Assembly: GCA_020723305.1 (NCBI GenBank)
Contig: DYJC01000004.1
Coordinates: forward strand, 200,261 to 264,260
Length of the DNA: 64,000 nucleotides
Origin: Desulfosudis oleivorans
Lineage (GTDB): Bacteria; Desulfobacterota; Desulfobacteria; Desulfobacterales; SURF-7
Direction of reading: 5' to 3'
In this document: positions 3,858 to 63,136 of the stretch, piece after piece
How the letters are laid out: each line of letters begins with the position of its first letter
Position numbering within the stretch: position 1 is the stretch's first letter
Notes under the pieces: generated by a model
What the model was told of the DNA's origin: nothing
Database searches by the model: none
The model's input: only the letters and a program-made list of their open reading frames with translations
Made by a program: the position numbers and the translations under genes

Positions 3858-5276
3858 ATGAAACAGATGAACAATCAAGAAATGCTATTGCGCAAGCTGC
3901 CTGGTGTGGATCGAATATTGGAACGTATTCAGGAAGAACAGGAGTATACAGGTACCCCGAAATCCGTTCTTGTGGATGCGATCCGGTTTGTGATCGAAAA
4001 AAAACGTTCCGATATTCTGCAAACCAGGACATTCGATGATGTTACCGATGATATTAATATCGATCAGCTTCTGTCCGATATCCGGCAGAAAATTGCAATG
4101 ATCATGAAACCCAACCTGAGACGAACCGTCAATGCAACCGGTGTTGTGGTTCATACAAACCTTGGGCGCTCTCTCTTGGCTAAAAAAGCGATTGAACAGG
4201 TTATTGAAATCGCATCAAACTATTCCAACCTTGAATTTGATATTGAAAAAGGCCAGAGGGGACTTAGGTACAGCAGTGTTGAAGATATTCTGTGTGAAAT
4301 CAGCGGGGCTGAATCCGGAATGGTGGTCAATAACAATGCAGCCGCCGTACTTCTCTGCCTGGAAACCATGGCCAAAGGAAAAGAAGTCATTGTTTCCAGG
4401 GGTGAACTTGTTGAGATCGGTGGATCCTTCCGAATTCCGGATGTCATGGCAAAAAGCGGTTGTATCCTGAAAGAGGTCGGAACCACAAACAGAACCCATC
4501 CCAGAGATTATGAAGAAGCCATCAATGAAAATACAGGGCTTTTACTCAAGGTGCATACCAGCAACTATACCATAACCGGATTTACGGCAGATGTTTCCTT
4601 ACCGGAAATGGAAAAAATCGGAAAAAAACATAGCCTTCCGGTCATGGAAGATCTGGGCAGCGGTACATTTATTGATTTTTCACGATACGGGCTTACACGA
4701 GAACCCACGGTTCAGGATTCTGTCCGGGCTGGAATGGATATTGTAACCTTCAGTGGTGACAAATTATTGGGCGGCCCTCAGGCAGGGATCATTGTCGGCA
4801 AAAAAGAGATCATCGGAAAAATACGAAAAAATCCTTTGACCCGGGCTCTCCGGATCGACAAATTAACCCTTGCCGCTCTGGAAAGTACGCTCAGGCTGTA
4901 CCGGGATCCAAAAAATGCAGCCAGATGCATTCCCACACTTCGCATGATAACTGAACCCTATGAACAGGTGCATCAAAAAGCGGACCGGCTTGTCAGAAAC
5001 ATAGAAGAACTGCATGACTCCCGTCTGGTTCTTAACATCAAAAAAATATCCTCGAAAACCGGTGGAGGTGCCCTGCCCCTTCTGGACATACCCAGCGCCG
5101 GCGTGGGAATCCGGATTCAGGACATGACCGCAGACGGAATTGAAAAAGCCATGCGGGCCAATGACCCGGCGATTATCGGAAGGATTGAAGAGGATCTGTA
5201 TATTCTGGACCTTCGAACCATTCAGGATGATGAGTTTTCAATCATCGTGAATGCCTTGAAAAATATTCTTGCATAA
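3858..5276 (+). CDS. selA: L-seryl-tRNA(Sec) selenium transferase (SelA)
   Basis: 472-aa PLP enzyme that converts Ser-tRNA(Sec) to Sec-tRNA(Sec) using selenophosphate; E. coli SelA is 463 aa. The N-terminal tRNA-binding domain is followed by VNATGVVVHTNLGRS and the PLP-lysine motif SGDKLLGGPQAG, with the lysine at residue 302. The gene begins 10 nt after the CheD-HDOD gene, probably in the same transcript. selB, selC and selD are not in the window; in many genomes selB follows selA, but here a palindromic repeat and a FmdB gene follow instead. Its presence supports reading the TGA at 58719-58721 as selenocysteine. Confidence 0.96.
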   Translation: MKQMNNQEMLLRKLPGVDRILERIQEEQEYTGTPKSVLVDAIRFVIEKKRSDILQTRTFDDVTDDINIDQLLSDIRQKIAMIMKPNLRRTVNATGVVVHTNLGRSLLAKKAIEQVIEIASNYSNLEFDIEKGQRGLRYSSVEDILCEISGAESGMVVNNNAAAVLLCLETMAKGKEVIVSRGELVEIGGSFRIPDVMAKSGCILKEVGTTNRTHPRDYEEAINENTGLLLKVHTSNYTITGFTADVSLPEMEKIGKKHSLPVMEDLGSGTFIDFSRYGLTREPTVQDSVRAGMDIVTFSGDKLLGGPQAGIIVGKKEIIGKIRKNPLTRALRIDKLTLAALESTLRLYRDPKNAARCIPTLRMITEPYEQVHQKADRLVRNIEELHDSRLVLNIKKISSKTGGGALPLLDIPSAGVGIRIQDMTADGIEKAMRANDPAIIGRIEEDLYILDLRTIQDDEFSIIVNALKNILA

Positions 5277-52812: not shown

Positions 52813-53811
52813 TTATCCAATATTCAGACTCAGTTCCCCGAGTGCCATTCGGACAAGATCCCCAATAAAGATAAAAGGCAGCTCATTCTTTTGTGCCGCA
52901 ATAAAAAGGTTATTGCGGCACATGGGGCAAAGATAAACCATCGCTTGTGCACCTGACTTCTTTGCATCCAGGATATTTTTTTCCTGATCTTCAGTCGGAT
53001 CTCCCATACCAAGCAGTTGTTTTACGGCAGCACAACAAAGAGCCTTTTCACGATCATAAACTCGTTTTACCCGACGAACCCCGACAAGTTCAAACAACTC
53101 ATCAATAAAATGTTCCTTTTCCGGGGTGTGTCTCGAAGCACAAGGCCTTTGGTAAGAGATGTCAAGATTGATCGGTTTGATCCGGTCTGCATTCTTTTTG
53201 ACATGCTCGACCAGATATTCAGCAAGATGAACAGGCCGGAACGGGACATCAATTCCATATTCCGGAGCAAGCCGGGCCAGCATGGCATAGCAATCATCAT
53301 GAAAGCAGACAACTTCTTTGGCACCTGTTTTTGCCAGATGGGAAACAACCTCCTTTGCATGTTTTCTTTGAATGCTTTCAACCCCCATGTGACTGAACAA
53401 CAACCAGCAGAAATAGGGTTTGCCGCCCACTTTGGGCAGATCGTACAGTTCCCCTTGAATCAGCGCTGCTTCATTTTTACCGAACACACAGGTTGTCATC
53501 ACACGATCTGCTTTCGGAATATCGCGTAATTCACCTGAAAATGTGTACTGTTTTTCTGTAGCGGCAACCGAATCTTCGGGAATGAACCGGCAAAATTTTT
53601 CCTGTAATTCTGCTATCAAATCAAATGGATTTGCTTTTTTGGGGCAAATCTCATTGCAGCCATAGCATGTGATACAAGCATCAAGTGCCGGAGCATACTC
53701 TCCGGAATTCATCAATTGCTTCCATGTAACCGCCTGATCCAAATCAACGTCCATCCATTGGCACTTAACGAGACATTCTCCACAGAGATTGCATTGTTCA
53801 GGTTTAAACAT
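52813..53811 (-). CDS. HdrD/GlpC-like CCG-domain iron-sulfur protein
   Basis: 332 aa. Residues about 7-70 hold two 4Fe-4S motifs: CNLCGECLVKC and CITCYGCNEICP. The later half has two CCG-like regions, CFHDDCYAML and then a C-terminal RPCASRHTPE and ALCCAAVKQLL with LCPMCRN, which are the cysteine pairs of HdrB/HdrD-type proteins. Probably transfers electrons to a quinone or a disulfide-like site. ATG 53811 has GAGGAT 7 nt upstream; the open frame runs back to 53973 but this part is not needed. It is convergent with the SDR gene. Confidence 0.75.
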   Translation of the reverse strand: MFKPEQCNLCGECLVKCQWMDVDLDQAVTWKQLMNSGEYAPALDACITCYGCNEICPKKANPFDLIAELQEKFCRFIPEDSVAATEKQYTFSGELRDIPKADRVMTTCVFGKNEAALIQGELYDLPKVGGKPYFCWLLFSHMGVESIQRKHAKEVVSHLAKTGAKEVVCFHDDCYAMLARLAPEYGIDVPFRPVHLAEYLVEHVKKNADRIKPINLDISYQRPCASRHTPEKEHFIDELFELVGVRRVKRVYDREKALCCAAVKQLLGMGDPTEDQEKNILDAKKSGAQAMVYLCPMCRNNLFIAAQKNELPFIFIGDLVRMALGELSLNIG

Positions 53812-53999
53812 TTGTTTATCCTCATCGTAGAGTAGTAATATTCCAATACAAAGCAGTAACCCAAAAATATACTCAATTCTTAATGACGTTTCCTTGGATT
53901 TGTCAATATTGGATTTACGATAAAAATTCGGGTTGTGCAGTAAAAAAAAATCATGTATTGTGAACAAAATCAATGAACCTCGAAAAAAGGAGATCGATC

Positions 54000-54500: not shown

Positions 54501-57500
54501 TTAGCCCCTTGAGGGATGGATTTTTTGAATTTTCTCCAGGTCCCAATACAACTCCATGGATTGAAAATCATTTTTGGCTTTTTCAAGATAGGTATTCCCA
54601 ATATTTTTTTCAGTCGGAAGCAGTTTTTCCATATTTGTATTCCAGAAACTGCCGATCTCAAAATATGTCCGGCTCACTTCTATCAGGGCTCCGAGCTTGA
54701 CACCTATGGACAGGCTCTGATCCCATAACCTGAGTGCTTTGCGATGAAAGCCGGTTAACAGGTAATATTTCCCCATAAGTCTATATGCCTCTGTTTGATA
54801 GGATACCACCTTTCTGGAATTTTTTTTTATTTGCCGGCATGCTGCGAACGCTTTTTTCCTGCATATGTTTATTGTCCTCGGATCACCTTTTTTAATAACA
54901 GCCTCTAAACAATATAACTCAAAATGAGCGAGGCTCATGAGATAATGGCAAAGGTATGAAGAAACAATATCTGTTTCAGATCGAATTTTATTGGCTGCAT
55001 CCAAAAATTTTTTCGCATTCGGGAGGTCATCCAAAAACAGGTAAATCAAAACCTTAAACGAGTATAAAACCATGAGAACCTGTTTGAAATCCGTTCTGGA
55101 AACAAATGCTATCCCTTCTTCTGCTTCGATCATAGCTGCCCTGAGCTTGCGGTACTTCAGCAACAACTTGGTGTTTAAAAAATATTTTAAGGTTTGTGAA
55201 AAATCATGTGAATACGTACTGCCGATATCGGATAGCTGTTTAACCAGATAGCGTGCCTCTTGGTATCTGCCCTGCTCTAATCGTATACGACCCAAAAAGG
55301 CGATATATCCGGAAACATGCATGATGGATCCCTGTTGCAGACCAAACTCAACAAGTTCTTTATCATATGATATATCCCAGTTCCCTGTATAATAACATAG
55401 GAACAGATTGGCCATTTCTAAATTTAACCTGGATTTTCCATCATCGGGATCAACTTTTTTCTTTACAAAAGAAAAAATTCTTCTGCTCAATCGAAAGGAA
55501 ACAGCTGACCAGGAAAAGGCCACGCTCAACCCAACAAACATACCAACCCCGCCTTTTATCTTCTTGATATTGTATCTGGAAAGATATCTTGAAAAAAAGA
55601 GGGATTCTATAAAAAATTTTTTTGAGTCCGTGTACACCAAGGTTGAAACCTTGTTATAAAAAAGATTGATCACCTCGATATCGCCGGCCTCCGGTTCTTT
55701 ACGCCATTTTAAAACCGGCAGGTAGAGGCTTACCAGAAAATCCAAAAATGCAAAAAGAAAACAAATAGCTAAAAAAAAGCCTTTTTCAGGAGTTCGAATA
55801 TGATAGCCGGCAAGTGCTTTTTTATAATATATCAGGGCTTCTTTATATTGGCCACGGTTATAAAGGCTATGGGCAATATTCTTTTGCATCATGGCAACCT
55901 TTATAAAGTCTGCACTGTCTCCATATTTTTTCAGATAGATGGCCAACGCTTCCTGGTAATAATAGAAAGCTTCATTAGAAGCTCCAGCACGTAAGGATTC
56001 CTCTCCTGCTTTTAACATACATGTTTCAGCACGATCCATATCATCACTGCCGATATAATGATACGCCAGCATGCCATAAAATTCACTCAACCGGTCTTTA
56101 AATACAATTTCAATGGCAAGTGCAATTTTACCATGCAGTTCCCTGCGTTTCTGGTTCAGCATGGAAGCATATGCTGTTTCCTGAGCAAGGGCATGTTTGA
56201 ATACATACTCAGTTTCCTCAAAACGATAACGCTCTACAATAAGCTGCATCTCTTTCAGTTCTCTCAATGCAGATTCAATCTTTTCCGTATCATCAATTAC
56301 GTGAGATAAAATTCGATGAAAAAAAGTTCTGCCGATTACGGATGCAATCCTCAGTACTTCTCTCGTTGAATCACCCAATCGATCTATTCTTGACATAACA
56401 ACATCATTTACAGTCTGAGGAATTGTAACCGCGTCAACCATATTCGTTATCATATAACAACCATTTTTCCTCACCACGGCTCCGATATCAATAAAGGATC
56501 GCATCACTTCTTCAATAAAGAAAGGATTACCGTCCGCTCTTTGCAAAATCCGGTTTTTTACCTTTTCAGGCATTCCATTGGTCTTAATCAGGCTGTCAAT
56601 CAAACATTCACCCTGGGATTCGGAAAGTGGTTGAATCAGCATTTCAATATATCGATCCGGGTATTGGATCCTTATGTTTCCGACCATTCGATTCATAGTT
56701 GTTTCCGTTATCGGACGGAAAAGATTCGCAAAGAGAATTGAATATTTTTGACACAGAGGAAGCAGTTCGGAAAGTAATTCAATAGAACTAGTATCTGACC
56801 AATGAAGATCTTCCATGATTAAAACAACTGGTCTCTTCGATGACAATTTTACCAGCAACTTTTTAATGCTCTTCGCAATCAGAATTTCCAGCGCATCACC
56901 CTCAATCTCTTCTGTCCTCTGGTGACAATGATCCGGAATGGATAAACCCATAATCGTTGCAACAAATGGAAGGACTTCTTCCGCATCCTCATCAAGGATC
57001 GATCGTATGGCCTTCTCAAGCTTTCTGAAAGAAACTTTTTCCGGGTCATTTTCTTTTATCCCGGCCCAGTTTTGAAACAGATTTGAAAATGAATGAAAAC
57101 CAAACTTGTTCCCCATTGAAATACTTTTCCCCTCGAGAAAAATGAATTTTCGACACACTTTCATTTTCCTGACTTCATATAAAATGCGGGATTTCCCAAT
57201 CCCTGCCTCTCCTGTGATACTGATAATTCCTCCGCTACCTTCCGATAGCTTTTGAAAGCATGATGTAATCATAGCTACTTCTGTATCGCGGCCTATCAGT
57301 TCTGAAAAAATCATCCTGTGACTGGCCAATTCATTATGATAAACCGGCCTTTTCCCCGGAAGCAGTTCATAAATCGACATGATTTCACTCTTCCCTTTTA
57401 AGACCAGCGGTTTTAATTTCTTAAATTGAAATCTTCCCCTGACTGCATGATAGGTATCCTGCCCAACAAGTATCTGGCCGACCTGTGAAATGCTTTCAAG

Positions 57501-57932
57501 TCTTGACGCGATATTCACGGTGTCTCCCATTACCGTATATTCCTTTTTCCGATTACCACCAATGGCACCGGCAAGAACGGTTCCCGTATTGATACCCACA
57601 TGAATATCCAACTGTGCTCCGAATCTGTTTTCCCTGTTTAACAGATTCAGTCTGTTCTGAATCTCAAGAGCGGTTTGTATGGCCTTGTAAGCTGCATTCT
57701 CGATGGCTGCAGGTACGCCAAACAATGCCATAACGCAGTCGCCCATAAATTTGTCAATCGTGCCGCCATACTTTTCAATAATATGCTCCATCATTGCAAA
57801 ACAGCGATTCATGATACTGGATACTTCCTCTGGGTCCATCTGTTCCGACATCGCCGTAAATCCGGATATATCAGCAAACATAACTGTCACGACACGTCGT
57901 TCGGGCTCTTGATTCGGAGAATACAAACTCAT
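54501..57932 (-). CDS. Class III nucleotide cyclase fused to AAA-type ATPase and TPR-like region
   Basis: 1143 aa. Residues about 12-195 form a class III cyclase: VMFADISGFT and FMGDCVMALFG carry the two metal-binding Asp, and KEYTVMGDTVNIASRLE carries the base-recognising Lys and Asp and the transition-state Asn and Arg. It should make cAMP. Residues about 215-640 are a STAND-type ATPase with P-loop GEAGIGKSR and LIMEDLHWSD. The remainder is helical repeat (TPR-like), with hydrophobic stretches near 745-765. This layout is common in large signalling cyclases. The input is unknown. Confidence 0.9.
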   Translation of the reverse strand: MSLYSPNQEPERRVVTVMFADISGFTAMSEQMDPEEVSSIMNRCFAMMEHIIEKYGGTIDKFMGDCVMALFGVPAAIENAAYKAIQTALEIQNRLNLLNRENRFGAQLDIHVGINTGTVLAGAIGGNRKKEYTVMGDTVNIASRLESISQVGQILVGQDTYHAVRGRFQFKKLKPLVLKGKSEIMSIYELLPGKRPVYHNELASHRMIFSELIGRDTEVAMITSCFQKLSEGSGGIISITGEAGIGKSRILYEVRKMKVCRKFIFLEGKSISMGNKFGFHSFSNLFQNWAGIKENDPEKVSFRKLEKAIRSILDEDAEEVLPFVATIMGLSIPDHCHQRTEEIEGDALEILIAKSIKKLLVKLSSKRPVVLIMEDLHWSDTSSIELLSELLPLCQKYSILFANLFRPITETTMNRMVGNIRIQYPDRYIEMLIQPLSESQGECLIDSLIKTNGMPEKVKNRILQRADGNPFFIEEVMRSFIDIGAVVRKNGCYMITNMVDAVTIPQTVNDVVMSRIDRLGDSTREVLRIASVIGRTFFHRILSHVIDDTEKIESALRELKEMQLIVERYRFEETEYVFKHALAQETAYASMLNQKRRELHGKIALAIEIVFKDRLSEFYGMLAYHYIGSDDMDRAETCMLKAGEESLRAGASNEAFYYYQEALAIYLKKYGDSADFIKVAMMQKNIAHSLYNRGQYKEALIYYKKALAGYHIRTPEKGFFLAICFLFAFLDFLVSLYLPVLKWRKEPEAGDIEVINLFYNKVSTLVYTDSKKFFIESLFFSRYLSRYNIKKIKGGVGMFVGLSVAFSWSAVSFRLSRRIFSFVKKKVDPDDGKSRLNLEMANLFLCYYTGNWDISYDKELVEFGLQQGSIMHVSGYIAFLGRIRLEQGRYQEARYLVKQLSDIGSTYSHDFSQTLKYFLNTKLLLKYRKLRAAMIEAEEGIAFVSRTDFKQVLMVLYSFKVLIYLFLDDLPNAKKFLDAANKIRSETDIVSSYLCHYLMSLAHFELYCLEAVIKKGDPRTINICRKKAFAACRQIKKNSRKVVSYQTEAYRLMGKYYLLTGFHRKALRLWDQSLSIGVKLGALIEVSRTYFEIGSFWNTNMEKLLPTEKNIGNTYLEKAKNDFQSMELYWDLEKIQKIHPSRG

Positions 57933-58202: not shown

Positions 58203-59426
58203 TCAAAGTACCAGTATGTCCGCAACCAGTTCCCAAAGATACTTGACCTCCAAATCTCCCATTCCATATTTATTTTTTACTGCATTTAGCTGTCCATGGC
58301 AGCTATGACAGGGAACAATAATCATCTTCACTCCTGCCGCCTTGATCTGCTCCATTTTTTTCCTGCCATAAAAAATTCGTTCCTCATCATACCCAGTGAC
58401 CAGGGTACCGCCGCCACCACCACAGCAGTATTGACCTATTCCTGCCGGATACAGATCCATCCACTCTTCAAGACACTGGTCCAGTATCCAGCGGGGTTCA
58501 TCAAAAAAACCATGCCCAAAAATCTTTTGAGCTTTTCGTCCATAATTGCAGGGATCATGATAGGCAGCCTTTACAGACACCTTTGATTTATCCAGTTTGA
58601 TTTGGCCATTTTGAATATACTTGATCAGCAAATCAAATACAGTATAAGTTCCAAATTTTTTCAATACTTCCGGATACCATTTTTCAAGACCAGACCTGGT
58701 CGCAAGATAGGCATGACCTCATTCCGGCCAAAGCAGATTTTTTGCCTGAAGCCGCTCCATATTTTCTGCAACCCGGCCGGCCATAATTCTCATTTTTTCA
58801 TCATCCCCGGTAAACAGCCCCCAGTTCGTTCCCTCCCAATTGATGGAAGGTACCGTCCAGTCCTCCTTGGCCGCAAAAAAAATCTTCCACCAGTGCTTTA
58901 AATCATCTGTATGGGTATTTACGAGTTTATTGTGTATGGTTGTCAGAATATTAGCCCCTATTTTATCCACCGGAACCACAAAATCTTCGAATCCGGGTTC
59001 TTGTGCAATCTCTTCTCCGACATCCTGAAGGATAAAAACAAAGTCTTCCTGTGGCAGTCCCAGATTATTGCCGGTCTGAATGGCCATGTCCAGCCCTTTA
59101 TGGAGAATGCCGGGAACCTTGTCCCTGTCTCTCAAGGATCGAATCTTCCGGATCAGACCCGGAATATCGACTTCCATCGGGCATACATTCTCACATTTTG
59201 CGCACATGGTGCAAATCCATGGCCATCTGGACGAAACGATTTCTTCCTGCATACCAAGGGAAACCATGCGTACGATTTTGCGGGGATCAAACCCGTCAAT
59301 CCCTGAAACCGGACAAGAGCTTGAGCAGACTCCGCAAGTAATACAATAGTCCTGAGAATGAGGCCATGATCTCAAACAGCCCCGGTTCAGATTGTTCATA
59401 TCAATCATTTTATCTGTTTCAGTCAT
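58203..59426 (-). CDS. Selenocysteine-containing HdrD/DsrK-like iron-sulfur protein
   Basis: 407 aa if TGA at 58719-58721 (codon 236) is read as selenocysteine. N-terminal ferredoxin motifs are Cys28-x2-x2-x3 (CITCGVCSSSCP) and CTMCAKCENVCP (about 72-83). The first CCG domain ends LLWPE-Sec-GHAYLATR, where the family has E-C-G-H-A-Y; the second has YHDPCNYGR, YCCGGGGG and PCHSCHG. Without recoding, the first 235 codons and the later part would be two broken genes. The frame matches exactly, and a hairpin like a bacterial SECIS lies at 58688-58701. AGGACGG precedes ATG 59426. It is the last gene of a three-gene Hdr/Qmo-like operon. Confidence 0.88.
58688..58721 (-). promoter_or_regulatory. UGA codon with bacterial SECIS-like hairpin
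   Basis: The UGA (58719-58721) is followed after 17 nt by GACCA (58697-58701), loop GGTC (58693-58696) and TGGTC (58688-58692): five perfect pairs and a 4-nt loop beginning GG, 22 nt from the UGA. Bacterial SECIS elements have an apical loop about 16-37 nt after the UGA and a G in its first two positions, as here. Confidence 0.8.
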
Positions 59427-59437
59427 CTTTTCCGTCC

Positions 59438-61057
59438 TTATGAATACTTCAGGTTCTTCCGGATCACGCTCGGACCGAGCTCCAGTAGTTGTTTTTGAAA
59501 TGCATTTACGATCCTGCCAAACTCTGTTCCCATATTTGCTGCGATGGTCTCGATATGCAGGCGTTCTTTTTCAAATCCCATAACCGACAACCGGGCCTTG
59601 ACATTTTCCGCTCTTGTTTTTGCATAATGATTTCCAACCTCTGAATGACAGTTCCCTGGATGACATGTCAGAAGGATTACCCCGTCTGCTCCTTTCATAA
59701 AGGTGCTTAAAATATGGCCCATTGAAACGCCGCCGGCACACGGGACTGCTACGATTTTGAGACCTTCCGGCAGGCTGTTTTGAAGTTGATCTGTTGCCAG
59801 TCGAAATGACCTGCCCGCAGATCGTGTGCAGCAAAAAGCAACGATTTCCGGGATAAACTCTTCTGTCTGATCCAAAATCCTGCTGACATGAATTTTGTCC
59901 AGGTCATCAGAAATTCCAGGACCGGACCAGGTAATATACTCCCGGGGACACTCCGCAACACAAATTCCACACCCTTCACACGCATCTGCACAAACCATCA
60001 CTCTGCCTTCCAGCCTGATCGCTTTATACGGGCAGATCCGAAAGCAGGTAATGCATCTCGCGCACTCCACAACGCCGATTTTGGCTTTACCAACAGAAAC
60101 CGGTTCGGTTTTTTCCGCTGTCAGGCGCATCATAACAAGTGCAGCATTGCCGGCATCATCCAGCTTGGTTTTATGATCAGCGATACACCGTGACGAACCA
60201 ACAACCAGGATTCCTTTTCGATTGGTAAAAACAGTTTCCCTGTGAACATTATCGGTCTGTAAAAAACCGGCCTTATCCTGATTCAGCTCAAACACCCCTG
60301 CCAATGCTTCCAGATTCTCAGATGGCAAAAGCTCTTCATCCACTACCGCCAAATCCGGAAAAATCTTTACCGGTGATTGCAGAATTTCATCCTGGTATAC
60401 CACGGTAACTCTTCCGTCATCCGACTGTGCAACCACAGGGGGTATCTGATTGAGCTTGGCATAAAAAACACCGGATGCTTTCGTCTCCCTGTAAAGTTTT
60501 TCAAGACCTTCCCCGCCGACCTTAAGATTCCCGGTGAGAACAAAGACTTCCTGGTGATAATCTTTTTGTAACTGAAATGCGCAGGTCATTATTTCATTCA
60601 GTACAACCGGATTGCTTTCCTGATTGCATCCTGTCAAAAAAAGCACCTTGAGCCCCTCTTTTAATAAGCCTTGAGGACTTGTTTTGTTTTCAATTGCGTT
60701 TACTATCTCCGACAGGGAAATAACGGAATCCGAAGGCCTGAGTCCATAGCTTTCAAAATTGTCTTTTCTTCGATACTCTTCAGCAATCACGACCCCGGAA
60801 ACAGTCTCTGAAATATCCTTTTCGTTGGAGCGAATGGTTATCCGGAAATCATTTACACATCCTCGGCAGGAAATTATTTCAGAATTACTGTAGAGTAAAG
60901 TGCCAGTATTCTCTTTCTGAATCGGTTCCTTCAAAAAATCTGCCCGGTCAATTTCCTTTCTTGAAACCAGAACAGTGCCAATACCATTGGCTGATAACTC
61001 TTTTGCGGTTTTGATGGCACTCGCTCCATCACCGGCGATTAAAACTTTTACCGTCAA
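59438..61057 (-). CDS. QmoB/HdrA-like flavoprotein subunit with ferredoxin and MvhD-like domains
   Basis: 539 aa. The start VKVLIAGDGASAIKTAKELS is a degenerate FAD-binding fold. Residues about 330-390 carry two 4Fe-4S motifs (CARCITCFRICPYKA and CADACEGCGICVAECP). The C-terminal about 120 residues look like MvhD, the small electron-transfer protein of F420-non-reducing hydrogenase, with LLTCHPGNCHSEVGN and an N-terminal CCT instead of the usual CNWC. This order recalls QmoB and HdrA-MvhD fusions. It follows the HdrA-like gene by 15 nt and precedes the selenoprotein gene by 11 nt. Confidence 0.82.
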   Translation of the reverse strand: MTVKVLIAGDGASAIKTAKELSANGIGTVLVSRKEIDRADFLKEPIQKENTGTLLYSNSEIISCRGCVNDFRITIRSNEKDISETVSGVVIAEEYRRKDNFESYGLRPSDSVISLSEIVNAIENKTSPQGLLKEGLKVLFLTGCNQESNPVVLNEIMTCAFQLQKDYHQEVFVLTGNLKVGGEGLEKLYRETKASGVFYAKLNQIPPVVAQSDDGRVTVVYQDEILQSPVKIFPDLAVVDEELLPSENLEALAGVFELNQDKAGFLQTDNVHRETVFTNRKGILVVGSSRCIADHKTKLDDAGNAALVMMRLTAEKTEPVSVGKAKIGVVECARCITCFRICPYKAIRLEGRVMVCADACEGCGICVAECPREYITWSGPGISDDLDKIHVSRILDQTEEFIPEIVAFCCTRSAGRSFRLATDQLQNSLPEGLKIVAVPCAGGVSMGHILSTFMKGADGVILLTCHPGNCHSEVGNHYAKTRAENVKARLSVMGFEKERLHIETIAANMGTEFGRIVNAFQKQLLELGPSVIRKNLKYS

Positions 61058-61072
61058 GAAATTTCTCCAATT

Positions 61073-62101
61073 TTAATTATGTTGTGTCTGAAAATAATTC
61101 AGGACATCCAAAGCTACCCTTCCTGCATCTGCAATGGATTCTGTTATGCTTTTGGGCCCCGTTGCCGTTCCTGCTGCAAAAACCCCGGGAGCGGATACCA
61201 TGGATTGTTCATCTAAAAATTCACTTCCAGTGGATTTCAACCCGATTTTTTCCGCTATGGGATCTGCATTCCGGTTCGGTGTTATCCCGACCGAAAGCAC
61301 AACCAGATCAAACAGCTCTTCCGTCTGTTTCCTCAAAGCGGGCAAATAATATTCCAGTTTTATTTTTCGATCATCTGTTAAAAAAACATCCCCGGGTATT
61401 GCACGGATCATTCTGACCTGGTCCTTGATCAAATCATAATTATTCTGGAAGTCTTTTCCAAATGACTGGACATCAATATAAAAAACAGAAATCTCCATGC
61501 TCTTTTCCCTGAATTTGATAAGCCTTGCCATTCGAAGCGCTGATCCGCAACATACCTTTGAACACCAGAGATGGTTCAGGCTTGAATCCCGGCTGCCCAC
61601 ACACTGGATAAACGCAATTTTCTTTGGAACGCTCCCATCTGATGGCCTCTTCACAACCCCATCCTGACGTAATCTTTTTTCAAGGTCAAGATTGGTGATT
61701 ACATCATCAAACCGTTTATACCCGAACGGCTTGTCTATGGGATCAAACGGCTGAAAACCGGTTGCCATGACAACAGCGTCAACCTCACAAGCCTGCTTTT
61801 CATGATTCCGGTCAACAAAGGATATGGCAAATCCATCTTTTTTAACGATATCCGTCAGACAAACTCCGGAGTATATGGTTATATTCGGATGGGAAACAGC
61901 GGCATCGATTTTTTCTTCCACAATACAGGCACCACACTTTACGCAATCATCGGTTGCCTTGCACGTAAACTGTCTTGCATATCCGCCAACTGTTTTTTCT
62001 TTTTCTATCAGGACTACCTTGACATCAAACTTTGCCAGTTCAATGGCGGTTGTCAGGCCAGCCACACCACTTCCGATAATCAATACTTTTTTATCAGGCA
62101 T
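61073..62101 (-). CDS. HdrA/QmoA-like FAD-containing subunit
   Basis: 342 aa from ATG 62101. The start KKVLIIGSGVAGLTTAIELA is a GxGxxG FAD fold, followed by CKATDDCVKCGACIVEEKI and the HdrA motif FIQCVGSRDSS...WCSKVCC. It lacks ferredoxin domains at the end and so resembles QmoA. A start at ATG 62140 (MSAKRDQGG) or GTG 62212 is possible; none has a strong ribosome binding site. It is the first gene of the operon and probably binds the flavin that splits or collects electrons. Confidence 0.8.
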   Translation of the reverse strand: MPDKKVLIIGSGVAGLTTAIELAKFDVKVVLIEKEKTVGGYARQFTCKATDDCVKCGACIVEEKIDAAVSHPNITIYSGVCLTDIVKKDGFAISFVDRNHEKQACEVDAVVMATGFQPFDPIDKPFGYKRFDDVITNLDLEKRLRQDGVVKRPSDGSVPKKIAFIQCVGSRDSSLNHLWCSKVCCGSALRMARLIKFREKSMEISVFYIDVQSFGKDFQNNYDLIKDQVRMIRAIPGDVFLTDDRKIKLEYYLPALRKQTEELFDLVVLSVGITPNRNADPIAEKIGLKSTGSEFLDEQSMVSAPGVFAAGTATGPKSITESIADAGRVALDVLNYFQTQHN

Positions 62102-62218
62102 TCTCGATTCAATTCCCCCCTGATCACGCTTTGCAGACATGATCCATTTTACAATAGTGATGCTTCTAAACAGCAATACACAATGATATCCAAATAATAT
62201 AAAAGTGATCACAGGTCA

Positions 62219-62278: not shown

Positions 62279-62386
62279 TGCGTTCATTTTAGTTTACGAT
62301 TTTTTACAACGGTTCATTATCCGGATAAAGCGATGAAGACACAGTACACTGAAATTCGCTTTGTATATCAACACAGGAGTTTCCAA

Positions 62387-63136
62387 TTGAAAATCAGCGA
62401 ACTTGTTAAACAAACCGGGGTTACAAAAGAAACAATCCATTATTACATTCGGGAGGGCATCCTGCGTAAACCGAAAAAATCAGGGAAAAACACGGCTGAT
62501 TATAATCAAAAATATATTGATCAGATCAACCTTATAAAATCTTTGCGTGAAAACTACTTCCTTCCCCTGCCTGTCATTAAGCAACTGATTACCATGCAGA
62601 AGAAAAAATCAGATCTGGACCAAACCTCATTTCATTTTTTGAGTAATCATTTCAAACCGCTTGAGCAGCTATTATCCAATGAAATTATCGGCAGAGATAA
62701 TTTTAAAAACAAAACCGGCCTCGATGACAATACGCTTTCATTAATGGAAGAATGGAATGTCATCAATGGTGAGGACATAGAGGGTACAACCCGTTATTTG
62801 GCGGATGATGTGATCATCGGAAAACTGATTGCAGATATGAAACGGCTCGGCATGATACCAAAATCCGGTTTTGATCCCAAATTATTAAAAGAATTTACGG
62901 ATTTTTTTCGTGAACTCGCCAAAAAAAATATCAAATTATTCTGGAATGCGAACTGGGGTGATATATCCATGGAAGAACTGACCATGAAAGGGATTCGGGC
63001 AACTGAGGTTTTAAGTCTGTTTTTTTATCACAGTTACCGGAAGGCGGTTCGTGAAGAATTTAAAGAATACATTAAAACCATAAATCCGGATCCAATTGTA
63101 AATATCCGGTCACGGCAATTCTCGATGAAAGCATAG
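62387..63136 (+). CDS. MerR-family transcriptional regulator
   Basis: 249 aa from TTG 62387. MKISELVKQTGVTKETIHYYIREGIL is the MerR winged helix, given here as KISELVKQTGVTKETIHYYI; the extra C-terminal domain (about 100-249) is unknown and not a metal-binding loop. TTG is chosen because AGGAG lies 7 nt upstream and gives the family's start; the open frame from ATG 62333 would add 18 residues. It is divergent from the Hdr-like operon and may control it. Confidence 0.85.
   Translation: MKISELVKQTGVTKETIHYYIREGILRKPKKSGKNTADYNQKYIDQINLIKSLRENYFLPLPVIKQLITMQKKKSDLDQTSFHFLSNHFKPLEQLLSNEIIGRDNFKNKTGLDDNTLSLMEEWNVINGEDIEGTTRYLADDVIIGKLIADMKRLGMIPKSGFDPKLLKEFTDFFRELAKKNIKLFWNANWGDISMEELTMKGIRATEVLSLFFYHSYRKAVREEFKEYIKTINPDPIVNIRSRQFSMKA

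Follow-up and report, generated by a model that had tools for sequence, protein, structure and literature searches.

Genes and features of the locus

The window analysed is a 64,000-nucleotide stretch of DNA from Desulfosudis oleivorans. It carries a three-gene operon on the minus strand, and the last gene of the operon is interrupted by an in-frame TGA. The features are listed below.

3858–5276, plus strand: SelA (TIGR00474, 623 bits against a cut-off of 268)
58203–59426, minus strand: hdrD-like gene, 407 aa with a predicted selenocysteine (Sec) at position 236, assigned from the open reading frame, domains and motifs
58688–58701, minus strand: SECIS-like hairpin, 5-bp stem GACCA/UGGUC and loop GGUC, supported by restricted choice among synonymous codons and by compensatory changes from A-U to C-G
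58719–58721, minus strand: in-frame TGA, codon 236, in the motif E-U-G-H
59438–61057, minus strand: fusion of the HdrA C-terminal part, a ferredoxin domain and an MvhD (FlpD) domain, adjoining the Sec gene in most relatives
61073–62212, minus strand: HdrA N-terminal-like FAD protein, assigned from domain matches; it opens the operon, and its exact start is uncertain

The hdrD-like gene is read from 59426 to 58203. After the TGA, 171 further codons (237–407) follow without a stop, up to a terminal TGA at 58205–58203. The context of the internal TGA is W-P-E-U-G-H-A-Y, and the longer one is LLWPE-U-GHAYLATRSGLEKW. The initial annotation had reported this interruption at codon 236 and the continuation of the frame. 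Both were confirmed at correct coordinates, and the minus strand, on which it was silent, is added here.

The order of the operon is hdrA-N, hdrA-C/mvhD fusion and Sec-hdrD, with gaps of 15 and 11 nt. At 74 of 80 named loci from relatives, a homologue of the fusion is present, usually directly upstream and in the same order. An hdrA-N homologue was found at 61 of the 80, usually directly upstream, with many contigs ending early. The operon holds hdrA and an mvhD domain only; neither frhG/frhA nor any other hydrogenase gene is present in it, and no membrane or cytochrome partner genes were found in it. Two further clusters of the order hdrA - mvhD(Sec) - hdrD(Sec) are located in the same genome. 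The Sec site of MvhD is FCCxRS, with Ser, in the window operon and in nearly all relatives, and three MvhD paralogues of the same genome have FCCxxU there. From these motifs, the window MvhD appears to have lost its Sec/Cys and the adjoining HdrD to have kept its Sec. A link with QmoAB, raised by the domain layout, was rejected. The fusion is just 25% identical to the homologue next to QmoC in the same genome, and other HdrA/MvhD genes score higher.

Past the three operon genes, the only conserved neighbour among the 80 loci is a small PocR-sensor-domain gene, which precedes the operon in 20 of the 80 relatives (among loci L076–L155), about 4 kb upstream of the TGA. Its product is a possible ligand sensor for the pathway. 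A MerR-family regulator (62333–63136, plus strand) is divergent from the operon, and its presence at this place is limited to two close relatives whose flank is long enough. Downstream of the operon, there is a fusion of an adenylate/guanylate cyclase, an AAA ATPase and TPR repeats (54501–57932, minus strand), which resembles the TOMM kinase/cyclase model. A second CCG-domain iron-sulfur protein (52813–53973, minus strand) has weak similarity to the NCBIfam model 'diclust_near_Sec' and stands beside the operon in the nearest relatives only.

Decoding of the in-frame TGA

The codon at the exact site was TGA at all of the 80 named loci, whose genes come from relatives roughly 59 to 94% identical. 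At the level of the class, orthologue matches with an E-value of 1e-95 or better were obtained in 123 of 389 genomes, and nearly all of them had exactly one internal TGA. As the class matches overlap with the named loci, the two sets cannot be counted as independent. Among the class matches, the exact position of the TGA was read in those that were fetched. Six class matches had no internal TGA; two of them stop short of the site, and the other four belong to a sister clade and have Cys there, in P-D-C-G-G-G. Chance does not account for the TGA, since the same site holds it at every named locus and a single internal TGA is seen in nearly all class matches that extend to the site. The orthologous group occurs widely in the class to which the window belongs, and its named members are mostly Desulfobacterales.

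The site was also compared in less related proteins. Paralogues of 33 to 40% identity, two of which are in the same genome, carry TGA in E-U-G-H. More distant relatives of the HmcF/TmcB/DsrK type have TGC or TGT at the site. Cys is found in all of the outgroups and also at the aligned site in two Cys subclades, and the tree of 71 sequences contains at least three Sec/Cys changes. The motif E-C/U-G-H is invariant among 34 diverse homologues. The alignment of homologues, a check proposed in the initial annotation, thus supports a Cys at this site in the relatives. In addition, purifying selection is equally strong on either side of the TGA, with a dN/dS of 0.06–0.17 past it versus 0.07–0.13 before it.

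The hairpin starts 17 nt past the TGA. The 5-bp stem and the loop starting with GG were already described in the initial annotation, and both were confirmed and are kept by selection across the relatives. Codon +7 is ACC in 81 of 81 sequences. In the same set, the ratio of codon entropy to its expectation was 0.29 for +6 (Ala), 0.00 for +7 (Thr), 0.40 for +8 (Arg) and 0.44 for +10 (Gly), whereas most codons outside the hairpin had values of about 1. In 66 of the 81 sequences, four or more Watson-Crick pairs form a stem that ends at nt 24; in a null of 500 synonymous recodings, the corresponding number averaged 3.9 and never exceeded 12. In the registers tested, the strict stem is not formed in about 15 of the 81. 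Synonymous Arg and Ser codons allow the closing pair, in one of two registers, to switch from A-U to C-G or the reverse. A matching G run was present in 33 of 33 sequences that have C at nt 24, and it was absent in 44 of 48 that have A there. Well-supported branches offer only three independent contrasts of the closing pair, a number with which a sign test cannot reach significance, and the recoding null therefore carries more weight. The folding energy of the 52 nt after the TGA, a check suggested earlier, was unremarkable (z = –0.18). Therefore, the case for the hairpin rests on the comparative evidence, by which it is under RNA-level selection.

The genome contains the complete set of selA, selB, selC and selD. 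SelA is encoded in the window, as previously claimed. The other three, for which a genome check had been proposed, are all present elsewhere in the genome: SelB with 382 bits, SelD with 376 bits and tRNA-Sec with 73 bits, the last being reported by ARAGORN as tRNA-SeC with the anticodon TCA. The SelD gene of this genome (L017, C41:10371–11294) has an in-frame TGA of its own. SelB scored above the cut-off in 38 of 40 genomes sampled with and without the Sec gene, and its presence is thus not discriminating. One orthologue-bearing genome, G021, had no SelB above the cut-off, perhaps because of an assembly gap.

Judged from the sequence comparisons, it is close to certain that the UGA at codon 236 is Sec. 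The initial reading of the codon is thus supported by its conservation, the selection past it, the hairpin codons, the Cys outgroups and the Sec machinery. If the TGA were a true stop, the locus would encode two separate proteins or represent a pseudogene or an assembly error, and a plain ORF caller does split the gene here, giving about 60 N-terminal and 47 C-terminal fragments among the relatives. Such a stop is extremely improbable and both it and the pseudogene were rejected, because the identical TGA recurs at every named locus, purifying selection continues downstream, the hairpin codons are frozen, the outgroups carry Cys and the Sec machinery is complete. Insertion of another amino acid such as Trp, or non-specific readthrough, for which no positive evidence was found in the sequence comparisons, has a negligible chance and was likewise rejected because the aligned residue is always Cys and never Trp in the relatives examined, the gene's own terminator is TGA and the layout of the hairpin, with a loop beginning GG, is that of a bacterial SECIS. 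Since a plain gene caller halves the gene, many genomes probably carry a wrong annotation for this conserved electron-transfer protein of sulfate reducers.

Cluster ligands and the putative role of Sec236

The N-terminus of the protein is HdrC-like and has two [4Fe-4S] motifs, C28/31/34/38 and C72/75/78/82. There is no Cys in residues 83–235. The N-terminal CCG half is degenerate and retains U236 alone, and the C-terminal CCG is complete (C293, C334, C335, C373 and C376). The two complete five-Cys CCG motifs of an HdrB-type two-cluster reductase are therefore absent, as the C-terminal one is the only one. The best structural matches of an AlphaFold2 model (pLDDT 86) were EtfD (PDB 9ojn, PMC13083937), with a Z of 25, and HdrB (PDB 5odc), with a Z of 19. 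In a profile alignment to EtfD, U236 corresponds to Cys581, H238 to His583, C293 to Cys637, C334/335 to Cys672/673, C373 to Cys709 and C376 to Cys712; the EtfD residue numbers agree with the ligand list of PMC13083937. In EtfD, the linear [3Fe-4S] cluster is held by Cys503, Cys538, Cys581 and Cys584, and His583 is a ligand of the noncubane cluster (PMC13083937). All six noncubane ligands of EtfD are kept in the Sec protein according to the alignment. In contrast, only the Cys581 position of the linear-cluster ligands survives, as Sec, and the other three have no counterpart. The membrane domain of EtfD is absent as well. By analogy, the noncubane 4Fe-4S site would consist of the C-terminal CCG and H238 and would be complete without Sec236. 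The initial annotation had placed the Sec at the CCG Cys that ligates the unusual 4Fe-4S site. The presence of Cys at this place in relatives agrees with that claim, but the assignment to that cluster is not supported in this form: the equivalent Cys581 of EtfD ligates the linear [3Fe-4S] cluster instead.

A mechanism can be proposed on these grounds. Sec236 would be inserted by SelB and tRNA-Sec by means of the downstream hairpin. The product would be an HdrD-like soluble electron-transfer subunit, in which HdrC and HdrB are fused, and its partners would be the FAD-binding HdrA half and the HdrA-ferredoxin-MvhD fusion encoded just upstream. Electrons may leave the flavin of HdrA by way of ferredoxin-type clusters, enter the HdrD-like protein at its two N-terminal [4Fe-4S] clusters and then reach a single noncubane [4Fe-4S] cluster in the C-terminal CCG domain. 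Sec236 would lie at the place of the second HdrB/EtfD cluster, two residues from the probable cluster ligand His238. Together with the noncubane cluster, its redox-active selenol could cleave or form a substrate of the disulfide type, such as a small-molecule disulfide or one like that of DsrC.

The role of Sec236 is less settled than its coding. That it serves as a redox-active selenol beside the noncubane cluster, not as a cluster ligand, is slightly favoured from the motif comparison. The main rival is that Sec236 is an iron-sulfur ligand, which completes or tunes the noncubane cluster or holds a small second N-terminal cluster. This is unlikely, although the equivalent EtfD Cys581 does ligate a cluster, the E-C/U-G-H motif is unchanged in all of the diverse homologues and H238 matches a noncubane ligand. 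The counterparts of Cys503, Cys538 and Cys584 that a second cluster has in EtfD are missing, with no Cys at all between the second [4Fe-4S] motif and U236; the C-terminal CCG already holds its five Cys; and Sec and Cys have been interchanged several times at the site. Returning to the redox-active selenol, it is tentatively suggested, at rather less than even confidence, that a lone Sec replaces the whole second cluster of an HdrB-like disulfide-splitting site, in a hydrogenase-free HdrA/MvhD complex common in Desulfobacterales. A nearly invariant Sec clade beside natural Cys versions is a good test of what Sec contributes at a noncubane-cluster active site of the HdrB/DsrK type. The question of Sec versus Cys also bears on the electron delivery of sulfate reducers to disulfide-type acceptors.

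Relation to known selenoproteins and HdrD-type proteins

In 2006, Zhang et al. (PMC1794560) described an 'Fe-S oxidoreductase (GlpC)' that contains Sec and has hdrA-frhD as neighbours, and a Sec Fe-S oxidoreductase (GlpC)-like protein with the motif UGH is an entry in a 2026 review table (PMC13188914). The window protein is of the same kind, a CCG-domain Fe-S protein, with the same U-G-H motif and from Deltaproteobacteria, and its gene adjoins hdrA and mvhD/frhD homologues as in that family. Taken jointly, Sec coding and membership in this known Sec 'Fe-S oxidoreductase/GlpC-like' (UGH) family are very probable on the sequence evidence. Some members have their gene in the published operon glpC-hdrA-frhD-frhG-frhA, which includes a hydrogenase and several Sec genes; such an operon is not required. 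The window operon differs from it in that hdrA is split, the C-terminal part of HdrA and mvhD form one fusion with Ser at the Sec site of mvhD, and the hydrogenase is lacking. The idea of Sec in such a protein is not new, as the UGH family has been in the literature since 2006, and the protein is a new orthologous group of that selenoprotein family. The novelty lies mainly in the detail of the branch and its gene cluster: an almost invariant Sec group, an operon of split hdrA, hdrA-mvhD fusion and Sec-hdrD, and an MvhD with Ser at the Sec site. No paper linking selenocysteine with DsrK was found in the literature search, and no discussion of Sec at the noncubane site was found in the literature examined.

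HdrD4 of Desulfobacterium autotrophicum HRM2, a related sulfate reducer, was reported to contain Sec (PMC2702500). As described, it is likewise a soluble protein of the HdrD type with HdrC and HdrB fused. The closest NCBIfam models of the window protein are HmcF, TmcB and DsrK, with 174, 152 and 143 bits against equivalog cut-offs of 750, 735 and 400, respectively. With such scores, it is not DsrK, HmcF or TmcB itself. The HdrD/DsrK-like membership given in the initial annotation is supported at the level of the group HdrD/DsrK/HmcF/TmcB. DsrK, HmcF and TmcB (NF045796, NF045711 and NF045724) share the overall architecture, and E-C-G-H is kept at the site by the Cys homologues that were examined; however, they have Cys where the window protein has Sec.
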